DNA of 64,000 nt. Source: Liolophura sinensis (lineage: Eukaryota > Mollusca > Polyplacophora > Chitonida > Chitonidae). Made by a program: the position numbers and the translations under genes. The notes under the pieces were generated by a model. It had not been told where the DNA came from. It saw only the letters and a list, made by a program, of their open reading frames with translations, and did no database searches. Where the stretch lies: positions 26,830,402 to 26,894,401 of the forward strand of contig NC_088301.1 in the NCBI RefSeq assembly GCF_032854445.1, written 5' to 3'. Positions 48,701 to 54,700 of the stretch are shown here, one piece after another (position 1 is the first letter of the stretch; the number at the start of each line of letters is the position of its first letter).

Positions 48701-51700
48701 TAGTGTATTATAGAAGTTTGACACCACAACCCACTCTATTAAGCCCGCAGTGTTGGTTATACACTGTGATCTCTGATAAAATTCTCAGATGCTTGTAGAG
48801 GTGTTTAGTCATGAAGTTGGTTACCTTCCACCAGTGTGGCACACCCACTGAGCGTGATCTATACGGGGTGAAAATCTGTGCATCACATACTCACCAAAGG
48901 TCAGTGGTTTACTTCGAGATCTCAACTTTCTTTCCCTCCGTGCAACTGCACGCTTGATATACACGTATGAGCAAAATATTCTTGAATTCAAAATTAAATA
49001 TCAATTTAATTTAATTTAAACTTTACCTTTTATCTCCACAGGCAGCACTACGGCCCACAGACGTGGTGTTGGAGGTGGGGCCTGGTACTGGAAACATGAC
49101 CGTTAAATTACTTGAAAAAACAAAAAAGGTAAGAACATGTCAGGAGCAGAAATGTGTTTTTGCTATAAACATAACTGGAGGCAAAATTCTTGGAAAGCTT
49201 AATTTGATAGCAAATACTTAGACAGAATTACAGTGAATTGAAATGTGAAAATTTTATTAAATTTAAAACATTAAGAATCAAAACTCTGTTTAATTGTGAC
49301 AATTAGCTTTATGAGTCACTGTCAGTCGGTTTATTGCTCCTTCAGTTTGTCTGATTTTTTTTAACATGAACCATTCACTTAAACGATGGGCCTGTGTGTA
49401 AGATGACGTAAAACTTGCCTGTCCGAGACAGATGATTAACAGACATCAATTTTGCAACTTTTCTCATAAATCGTTACATCATTGTGCTATAACTTGGACA
49501 ATGTTAAGAAAAAAAGTGAGGAGAAATATGACTTAAAAGGTTTCAGAAAAGAGGCCTCGATGTTATAAATGAAAAAATATCTCCATTATATGACAGTGCC
49601 ATACAGAAGTGCTAGATACAGGGGTTCGAGATTATGTGCATTTGTATATGGGATTATTGTAATTGACAAAATTAAAGAGCCTATACCAGAGATGTTTGGC
49701 AACAAATCCATCAATTTCAGTCTAAATGAAATCAAAATTTTGCAATTATTTTAGCATATCCCAGGTAAATAACCTTTCACAAGATGTCAGCCTTGTCAGA
49801 GCATGTGCTATCATTCAAAATGGGTGATAAAGTATCTAAAATTTATAACATGGGTTCTCACCGATGCAGTCACTGTGATTTCAAGTCCAGCTTATGCTGG
49901 CTTCCTCTCCGGCCATATGTGGGAAGGTCTGCCAGCAACCTGCGAATGGTCGTGAGTTTCCCCCGGGCTCTGCCCAGTTTCCACCCACTGTAATGATGAC
50001 TGCCGTCGTATAAGTGAAATATTCTTGAGTATGGCGTAAAACACCCATCAAATAATAAATAAATAAATAAATAAATATAACATGGGTCACTTTATAACTT
50101 TTTCATATTTTAGAGTTACTTTAACAATATAAATAGTGCAGGTACGAATCTGATATTTGTTATAATCTTAACCATTCTTGGTAAATAGAGAAAATATGAT
50201 TTGATTAGTGAATATAGATTTTCTGCCAAAACTCTCCTTGACTGTCTCTACAGTGTCATGCTTGACTTCATGTGGGATGTTGCAGCTGCTGTGAATTTGC
50301 TCTGTTCTTATGAATTATTCTCTATTTAGGTTGTGGCTTGTGAGATTGACCCCAGGCTTGTGGCTGAACTTCAGAAACGTGTTCAAGGAACGTAAGTTAC
50401 ATGCTTTATCAACGTTGTATTTTGAAAGATTTGAGTTTGTTGAGTTGCACAAGATAGATGTGTTGGGAACATCACTATGCAACATATACTTAACCAGGTC
50501 CAAATACAGCTTTTGAATTTCAGTATACAAATATAGAACAAAATAATAAAAAGATATTTTTGAACTATTGAAATATATGGAATATTTAATAGCAATTTAA
50601 AACCTTTTTTTTTGTCCAAAATATTAATTAATTAATGCATGTGAAATCAAATCTAATTATAATGCAAATGAGATATGGGTATTTATGTTACATCTTCTTC
50701 CCCCCATTCAGTCCAATGGCCACCAAACTCCAAGTCATGGTCGGTGATGTGTTAAAAACTGATCTTCCCTTCTTTGATGTGTGTGTGGCAAATTTGCCAT
50801 ATCAGGTAAACAAACGTATATTGCTGATTTGATATTAAGTGGGGTCAGTCAGCAAGCTCTATTTTTTGTGCCATAAGTCGTCTAGATATGGTCCAGTTTG
50901 AAGAACATTTTACATGTTAACTTTATGGAACCTCATATCATGTATTCTCATTTGTATCCGAGTATGAACTGCTCCAAATATTGTTCTATAGTTATAAAAT
51001 TTTGTGTTTAAGCTCATTATTTGTAACCTCATGTCACCTCTAAAAACCATTCTGATCCATGTATAAGTTTTGCATGCTTAATGATTGCAAATCTGATCCA
51101 TGCATAAGTTTTGCATGCTTAATGATTGCAAATCTGATCCATGCATAAGTTTAGCATGCTTAATGATTGCAAATCTGATCCATGCGTAAGTTTTGCATGC
51201 TTAATGATTGCAATGATTCTTATTGGCTGTTAGTGTGTGTGGAAGAATTGTATCGAGCAAATATTGTTCGACTTGACCACGCAGATCAGATTTTGGAACT
51301 AGTTTCAAAATTTGATCTACGAGGTTGTGTGGCCATAAACCAAACCCATTTTTAAATATTTATTGTTCGTTATTAGTTCATTGAATTTGCTTGTAAATTT
51401 ATTTTTTGTTTCCCCAGATTTCATCCCCTTTTGTATTCAAACTTCTACTTCACAGACCATTCTTCAGGTGAGCATACTTCCTTGTCTAGAAAGGATTAGT
51501 GAAAGCAACGGTGGTCCTGATATTGCCAGAATACTTAATAATTTGATCTAATTATTCATTGCATACATGTATGTTTGAGCATGACGCTCCTGACTTTTGA
51601 AGCTGTTTGATTTGTTCTTGCCAGGTGTGCAATCCTGATGTTCCAGAGAGAGTTCGCTCAGCGTCTGGTGGCCAAACCTGGCGACAAGTTGTACTGCAGA

Positions 51701-54700
51701 CTCTCTGTAAACACACAGCTTTTGGCCAGAGTGGATCATCTGATGAAGGTGAGTTGTACTGCAGACTCTCTGTAAACACACAGCTTTTGGCCAGAGTTGA
51801 TCATCTGATGAAGGTGAGTTGTACTGCAGACTCTCTGTAAACACACAGCTTTTGGCCAGAGTTGATCATCTGATGAAGGTGAGTTGTACTGCAGACTCTC
51901 TGTAAACACACAGCTTTTGGCCAGAGTGGATCATCTGATGAAGGTGAGTTGTACTGCAGACTCTGTGTAAACACACAGCTTTTGGCCAGAGTTGATCATC
52001 TGATGAAGGTGAGTTATACTGCAGACTCTCTGTAAACACACAGCTTTTGGCCAGAGTTGATCATCTGGTCAAGGTGAGTTACACGTGCTAGCGCTGCACA
52101 TTTACCCAGGAGCCTCCCACCAATGTGAGTTCAAGCCCAGCTCAAATGCTGGCTTCATCTCCGGTCATATGTGGGATGGCCTGCAAGTAACTTGCGGATG
52201 GTTGTGGTTGTTACCTTTCTTGAGTATGGCGTAAACACCAATCAAATCAAATCGAACGAGGAAAGTGGGTTGTACTGTAGACTCTGTATCCATACATCTT
52301 TTGGATGAAGGCGAGTTATACTGTAGACTCATGGCCATAGTTGATTATCTGATAATAGTGAGCAGTACTTTGCCATAATAGTGAGCAGTACTTTGCAGTA
52401 ATAGTGAGCAGTACTTTGCTGTAATACTGAGCAGTACTTTGCAGTAATAGTGAGAAGTACTTTGCAGTAATACTGAGCAGTACTTTGCCGTAATAGTGAG
52501 CAGTACTTTGCATTAATAGTGAGCAGTACTTTGCCATAATACTGAGCAGTACTTTGCTGTAATAGTGAGCAGTACTTTGCAGTAATAGTGAGAAGTACTT
52601 TGCAGTAATACTGAGCAGTACTTTGCCGTAATAGTGAGCAGTACTTTGCAGTAATAGTGAGCAGTACTTTGCCATAATACTGAGCAGTACTTTGCTGTAA
52701 TAGTGAGCAGTACTTTGCAGTAATAGTGAGCAGTACTTTGCAGTAATGGTGAGCAGTACTTTGCCATAATACTGAGCAGTACTTTGCTGTAATAGTGAGC
52801 AGTACTTTGCAGTAATATTGAGCAGTACTTTGCTGTAATACTGAGCAGCACTTTGCAGTAATAGTGAGCAGTACTTTGCTGTAATAGTGAGCAGTACCTT
52901 GCTGTAATAGTGAGCAGTACTTTGCAGTAATACTGAGCAGTACTTTGCACTGTCAGGGGACATGCAGCTTCTTCATCTGAGCTTCTTCATTGGAGTTCTT
53001 CATCCTGTGCAGTGTTATTATAGTGTAGGCTACATAAGTAATCAAACAGAAAACTTTTAGCACAAGTTGATTACCTGATAATAGTACATGTAAATGCTTT
53101 GCTGTCACATTAATATACTTATATATTTTAATTGCCGTGCTTGTATGTCATCAGGTGGGAAAGAACAACTTTCGCCCTCCTCCTAAAGTGGAGTCCAGTG
53201 TGGTCAGAATAGAACCCAGAAATCCACCTCCTGCAATCAATTTTCAGGTAAAGCGTATAAATTTAGGCTCCTAAAGACTTTTGCAGTTTTCCCAGTTACC
53301 CAAAGTTGTTAGGAAAATTTGTTTGCAAAATTTTGGGGGTCAAGTTTGTGACTGTGTTATGTTGAAGCGTGTGTTGTAATGAAGCGTGTGTTGCAGTGAG
53401 GTGCGTGCTGTGATGAAGCATGTGTTGTAATGAAGCGCATGTTGTAATGAAGGGCATGTTGTAATGAAGCGCATGTTGCAATGAAGCATGTGTGGTAATG
53501 AAGCGTGTGTTGTATTGAAGCATGTGTTGTATTGAAGCATGTGTTGTATTGAAGCGTGTGTTGTGATGAAGCGTGTGTTGTAATGAAGCGTGTGTTGTAA
53601 TGAACTGTGTTATGAGGGAGAAGTGCACATGTACACAAAACATAAAGCTAACTTGCCAAAATGTAAAGTGTAAGAAAGGTTGTAACAACGCAGATTCTCT
53701 CCTGTGATTTGTCCATTGAGGGTTTAACCTGTCACTAGTTTGGCTGCAAGTCTTCCAGCAACCTGCGGAAAGTCGTGGGTTTCCACCAGGCTCTGCTGGG
53801 ATTCCTCCCACCAAAATGCTGGCCACTGTCGTATAAGTGAAATATTCTTGAGTACGGCGTAAAACACCAAATCAAATAAATCAATAAATAAATAGTTTGG
53901 CAGCAGCTTTAGGTCAGGAACCTTTGTCATGTATGTGGGATAGGGCAGAGATTTTTTGGGGGCTCTGTTTGGTTCTCACTTTTGTCGTATAAGCGAAATA
54001 TTCATATAGCATTGAACCCCAGTTAGAGTAAATAACGAAGAAATAAAGACTTCTTTGCTGAACTACAAAGGTTAGGCCAGGCACTGAGAATTGATAGCCT
54101 GTATATTGCGACTGAATGGGGCATTATGTCTTGTCTCTTTAGTACAGCATTCCAGTGATTTAAAGGAGAAGAAATTTTAAATATCAAATAAATACCATTG
54201 AAAAGAGTATGCATTTCCTTGCATGTGCATACCATAAAAAAATTCTATGAACTTCAACTTAATAAATTATAAATAAAATCAGCACCAAAATCTGCTGTGG
54301 GCTTCTCCATTTTGCCTAAGAACTAGTCCTGAAGTCTTCTGTGCTAGGAGGAGAATTTCTGTTGGAAACCACCGAAGTGCAGTTCGTACGTTTCTGGTAG
54401 AAAATGTACATGACATGCCAACCGCTTTGGTGATTTCCGCTTGACAATCCTGAAACCGGAATCTTGGACGTAGGTTCCGAGTTTACACGAATAAGCCAGC
54501 AGTTTTAATGACTCTCATTGGTTGAGAGGCAACACACATCCAGCATAAATTGCAGGGTGTTAAAGATTGAGGACGCGATGGACTCAGTGATTTATGCCAG
54601 CTTTGCTGTTTTCAGGCTTTACGTGTATGGCGAGGAAAAATCACAAAATTATGCAGCAGGCACCATCGGATAGAAAAAAAATGTGCTCTTTTCAGCCTAT

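Follow-up and report, generated by a model that had tools for sequence, protein, structure and literature searches.

Minisatellites that arise where a tandem duplication spans an exon-intron boundary have been reported from lancelets as "mirages", in Adh3 (credited to Canestro et al. 2002) and the globin genes BflGb6 and BflGb9 (PMC3087553) and also in PGBD5 and TnC (PMC3902484), and have been proposed to occur generally in cephalochordates (PMC3087553). The lancelet arrays are reported to be of variable length, to undergo concerted evolution, to have diverged units at their ends, and to carry splice signals in many, but not all, units, while regular splicing is said to be undisturbed, though the signals could serve as cryptic sites (PMC3087553). 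Related structures are known from human IFI6 (6-16), where a minisatellite supplies several splice donors and the use of downstream units leads to isoforms (PMC4526556, citing Turri 1995), from human segmental-duplication genes, where internal tandem repeats at exon-intron boundaries alter gene structure (PMC2812944), and from cases of intron gain, i.e., a new intron in the potato RdRp gene from a tandem duplication across a boundary and intron gain by tandem duplication of 24-bp AGGT repeats in fission yeast (PMC4974935). Here, we describe an array at exon 7 of DIMT1 (rRNA dimethyladenosine transferase) in a 64,000-nt window of Liolophura sinensis contig NC_088301.1 (GCF_032854445.1), the whole stretch of DNA analysed, in which all coordinates below are positions. 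We regard it as quite probable that this array is a mirage on the donor side, a minisatellite from tandem duplication across the exon-intron boundary that is neutral in origin and leaves the first donor in use.

The host gene occupies 45718-56551 on the plus strand, and its exon model has 12 coding exons with an intact reading frame and GT-AG ends at every intron, giving a 306-aa product. The product matches the Pfam family RrnaAD (1.2e-59), and a 213-residue part of it matches two solved dimethyladenosine transferases in the PDB, 1zq9 (E 1.7e-128) and 6w6c (E 2.2e-128), both presumably human DIMT1. Against the 609-Mb assembly, all 14 matches listed for the protein, which are the best-scoring candidates only, fall inside this locus. 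In the exon model, exon 7 (51625-51748, plus strand, 124 bp) ends at the donor AAG/GTGAGT (the slash marking the exon end).

Six 65-bp units occupy 51689-52078 on the plus strand; the first consists of the final 60 bases of exon 7 and GTGAG of its donor, and the extra copies (units 2-6) sit in intron 7. Tandem Repeats Finder (TRF) calls the array at 51687-52080 with 6.1 copies and 97% matches, and the donors of the six units, which follow positions 51748, 51813, 51878, 51943, 52008, and 52073, all read AAG/GTGAGT. An earlier, sequence-only reading of this DNA had described five further repeats of the exon end plus GTGAG, on which TRF, the anatomy of the units, and the exon model now agree, and had traced the array to the donor junction of exon 7, an origin that the unit anatomy and donors support. 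Pairwise differences among the units amount to 0-4 of 65 positions: units 1 and 4 are identical, as are units 2 and 3, units 1-5 differ at 0-2 positions, and unit 6 stands 3-4 positions apart from the others. One site reads G-T-T, G-T-T across the six units, a pattern that suggests duplication of a block of three units.

Compared with the lancelet mirages, the DIMT1 array is alike in that its tandem units cross the boundary of a real exon and that several genes of the same genome carry such arrays, in that splice signals lie within units (six of six 65-bp units have AAG/GTGAGT), and in that the inner units (1-5) are homogenised while the end is diverged (unit 6 and the decayed outer units described below). 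It differs in that a SINE-like (short interspersed nuclear element) fragment parts old from young units and decayed units enclose a 23-bp satellite, and in that the cases sought and seen here are on the donor side only, acceptor-side arrays not having been looked for. The host, moreover, is a mollusc and not a cephalochordate, which is a matter of where such an array is found, not of definition. The host is taken as a mollusc, not a lancelet, because eight haemocyanin beta-sandwich domain matches lie in one run on contig C8, an arrangement that we take to be molluscan haemocyanin, and none of 14 control genomes has any such match. With the potato and fission yeast cases the locus shares tandem duplication within one gene that crosses a splice boundary or involves AGGT-bearing exon sequence, but new introns arose there, whereas the 12-exon DIMT1 model needs none and gives the full protein. 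The human segmental-duplication genes likewise have minisatellites at exon-intron boundaries, but the variation there is between paralogues, whereas one DIMT1 locus was found here.

Predicted U1 pairing is identical for all six DIMT1 exon 7 donors at -10.2 kcal/mol, which is stronger than that of nine of the 10 other DIMT1 donors and is reached by one of the 548 GTs in the other introns of the gene. Since all six are equal in this respect, donor 1 has no visible advantage and competition among the six is expected from the pairing model, which counts against our view that the first donor is the one used. By analogy with the lancelet mirages, we infer that the spliceosome would mainly use donor 1, the only one of the six that keeps the full reading frame (306 aa); from donors 2-6 the predicted product gains eight codons and then meets a stop, at 191 aa. 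Splicing at these later donors would probably lead to nonsense-mediated decay, and with this and the stop we expect the array to be close to neutral, not functional.

A contrary account makes the donor array functional, with six equal donors dividing splicing into productive and unproductive forms and so tuning the level of DIMT1. The minisatellite donors of human IFI6 (PMC4526556) provide its precedent, and in both loci a minisatellite sits at an exon and its units are donors; the loci are unlike in that the downstream units of IFI6 give isoforms, whereas the later DIMT1 donors lead to a predicted stop. This account would also fit the intact and identical state of the six donors, a U1 pairing predicted to rank with that of the strongest donors of the gene, and the one premature stop given by all of donors 2-6. 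However, the rest of the 65-bp unit is about equally preserved as the donors, which are identical because whole units were recently homogenised, a non-splice octamer forms pair loci at about the same frequency (see below), and the lancelet mirages were reported without disturbance of splicing (PMC3087553, PMC3902484). We thus judge a regulatory role improbable and favour the neutral mirage with its first donor in use. Each such array is an experiment of nature, with identical donors in competition, that makes donor choice directly measurable.

Beyond unit 6, older layers follow. The SINE-like fragment at 52083-52250 (plus strand, by BLAST), for which 17 further BLAST rows were obtained in the window, some of these rows being parts of one copy, lies between the recent and the decayed 65-bp units. 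Local alignment then places decayed 65-bp units, in three pieces shortened by internal deletions, at 52261-52353 (plus strand), and a further decayed unit, aligned over 53054-53079 and also recognised by shared derived bases, at about 53054-53085 (plus strand). Between them, at about 52353-52950 on the plus strand, lies the array of the 23-bp unit TAATAGTGAGCAGTACTTTGCAG, to which TRF assigns 26.0 copies over 52353-52949; GTGAG is kept in 17 of these 26 copies, and there are traces of a higher-order period of six units (138 bp). Both this array and the 65-bp array were found at a single place in the genome search, a DNA search that may pass over common words.

Each of the four decayed pieces outscores all of its 2000 composition shuffles (2000/2000), so the decayed units that the sequence-only reading had placed on either side of the 23-bp array are real, and its SINE fragment after the 65-bp copies and its approximately 26 copies of the 23-bp unit were recovered by BLAST and TRF, respectively. 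The divergence and order of the units support its stepwise model, in which the layer past the SINE is the older one and the layer between exon and SINE is recent and homogenised. What has to be given up is the picture of one continuous 1.4-kb satellite at 51689-53090: the repeat layers hold, but the segment 52951-53035, part of the ~100 bases between the 23-bp array and the downstream decayed unit, shows no similarity to the unit (shuffle P 0.15). The same layering bears on the assembly, where one exon end might have been stuttered into copies; such an artefact is highly improbable, given that the 65-bp units are not uniform (0-4 differences in 65 positions), that strong decay marks the outer units, with a SINE-like fragment in between, that the contig carrying the array is 60 Mb long, and that comparable structures with different units occur at other genes.

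The origin of the 23-bp unit is less direct. The sequence-only reading had it resemble the junction and would have counted a unit no closer than shuffled sequence as a refutation. The unit alone does not pass this test: compared with the 65-mer it is not closer than shuffled units (P 0.088), and of the 142 control scores that 71 arrays sampled from the genome gave, 23 reach its score. Both results weigh against descent and favour a satellite that arose beside the junction array and is unrelated to it, in a genome where arrays are very common, so that an exon 7 origin would apply to the 65-bp units only. The resemblance does hold once the flanks set the register. The upstream decayed unit runs directly into the first 23-bp copy, which fixes the register of the comparison, and in this register the junction agrees with the 23-bp consensus at 13 of 23 positions (P 0.0027) and with the first copy at 12 of 23 (P 0.007); for both, this is the best of 65 ungapped phases, the next best giving 10 for the consensus and 11 for the first copy. 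In addition, four derived bases are common to both flanks of the 23-bp block, across GTTGATTAYCTGATAATAGT, and three of the four lie in the portion leading into the 23-bp unit. An unrelated origin would leave unexplained both a first copy that carries on from a decayed 65-bp unit without loss of register and the derived bases shared by the two flanks, and we consider it unlikely. Because of this in-register match and these shared bases, descent of the 23-bp unit from the exon 7 junction appears likely as judged from the sequence.

A history can be proposed that accommodates these layers. The first duplication would have fused the beginning of intron 7 with the exon, possibly at a short AGTT that both share, after which slippage or unequal exchange would have multiplied the exon-donor unit. 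A SINE may then have come to sit inside the array, and the units beyond it would have escaped homogenisation and decayed, with one decayed junction copy, by then GATAATAGTGAGCAGTACT, multiplying as the 23-bp unit, while the exon-adjacent units would have been re-amplified recently. The locus seems to hold successive stages on the way from exon copy to anonymous satellite.

No boundary-spanning minisatellite of a mollusc was found in our literature search, in which subscription journals are thinly covered. As far as that search goes, the earlier statement that no case is described stands for DIMT1; it does not stand for the kind, which is known from the lancelet mirages and from further cases in this genome. 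A mirage-type minisatellite is, within the literature searched, new for molluscs, and the one at DIMT1 has an unusually legible history and is one of several in its genome. The range of boundary-spanning minisatellites thereby widens from lancelets to include a mollusc whose genome holds several independent cases.

These further cases emerged against a background of abundant tandem repeats. TRF was applied to 20 stretches of 10 kb (L011-L030; one in the window, two beside it, and the rest at round positions on contigs C1-C5 and C7) and yielded 71 arrays of period ≥12 covering 25,444 of the 200,000 sampled bases (12.7%), which seems a high minisatellite load. Genome-wide, the donor-octamer pair AGGTAAGT-N(8-38)-AGGTAAGT occurs 762 times versus 534 for the reversed motif, and single octamers occur 26,576 times for the donor versus 29,085 for the reversed control. 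Among the matches listed, clustered by eye into pair loci, there are 22 for the donor octamer (first 71.7 Mb of C1) and 19 for the reversed octamer (first 67.0 Mb). Donors as preferred seeds of arrays were rejected on this similar rate; as the reversed octamer repeats about as readily, donors appear neither preferred nor visibly purged.

Upstream flanks were read for all 22 donor loci and for none of the 19 control loci, which gave 4 firm exon ends, 2 likely, 1 possible, 12 loci with none recognisable, and 3 where the array start was not reached (L055, L061, and L062), all on C1. The firm loci are arrays of an exon's own last 27-39 bases plus donor, in genes for a Core-2/I-branching enzyme (GCNT-like; L044, Pfam E 2.4e-6, 43/45 between exon end and array), an RNA polymerase III subunit RPC1-like protein (L048, E 5.5e-9 and no Pfam match, 36/36), a GH31-like protein (L049, Pfam E 5.7e-13, 33/38), and an EGF_CA protein (L050, Pfam E 1.1e-8, 32/33), and in each of the four none of 500 shuffles matched as well. 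Likely cases are L052 (37/38, an open exon without family match or credible structure match) and L051 (15/15), where a weak deoC match (E 0.0023) falls far below its cut-off and other family and structure searches gave nothing credible; L054 (15/16, no family match) is possible.

The idea that every array bearing a donor sits at an exon end was rejected, since no exon end was recognisable at 12 of the 22 loci (L041, L042, L043 with L063, L045, L046, L047 with L064, L053, and L056-L060), among which family and structure searches were run for L045 only. L045, which has a weak polycystin match, was itself tried as an exon-end case and rejected (exon end versus array score 12, P 0.93). With no recognisable exon end at 12 of 22 loci, the presence of a donor-like motif within an array says little on its own, a point that counts against the mirage reading. 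Four firm and two likely cases stand among the loci listed from 71.7 Mb of the 609-Mb assembly, for one donor octamer. On this count we advance, only tentatively, the view that this mollusc regularly forms intronic minisatellites from exon-donor junctions, dozens or more in the genome, and that these decay into second-generation satellites of hidden exon origin. If true, part of molluscan intronic repeat content would be descended from exon ends. Separately, L059 and L060 carry a near-identical two-copy donor-like sequence, CCACTATGTGAGGTAAGTTTGCTT, 7 kb apart on C1, with no recognisable exon end.

DIMT1 itself contains a second donor-spanning duplication, one that the sequence-only reading had passed over. 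TRF and the exon model place a duplicated donor junction of exon 11 at 55967-56010 (plus strand), where the exon end plus GTAAGTA, TGATGATTTTATATCGTAAGTA, is present as two exact copies of 22 bp; in the exon model, splicing at the second donor would truncate the protein at 293 aa. Intron 8 holds a 17-bp array (53363-53604, plus strand, 14 copies) whose unit TGAAGCGTGTGTTGTAA resembles the exon 7 junction ATGAAG-GTGAGTTGTA with a score of 22 (shuffle P 0.0046, uncorrected, for one of 12 arrays tested), a score reached by 1 of the 142 control scores from the 71 sampled arrays; this array could be a third descendant of the junction or a chance likeness. Intron 10 (55315-55874) has a weak donor, ATA/GTACGT, with a predicted U1 pairing of -0.9 kcal/mol. 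Just 3' of the gene, at 57140-57820, lies a 60-bp array of ~11.4 copies with 97% matches that is open in two plus-strand frames.

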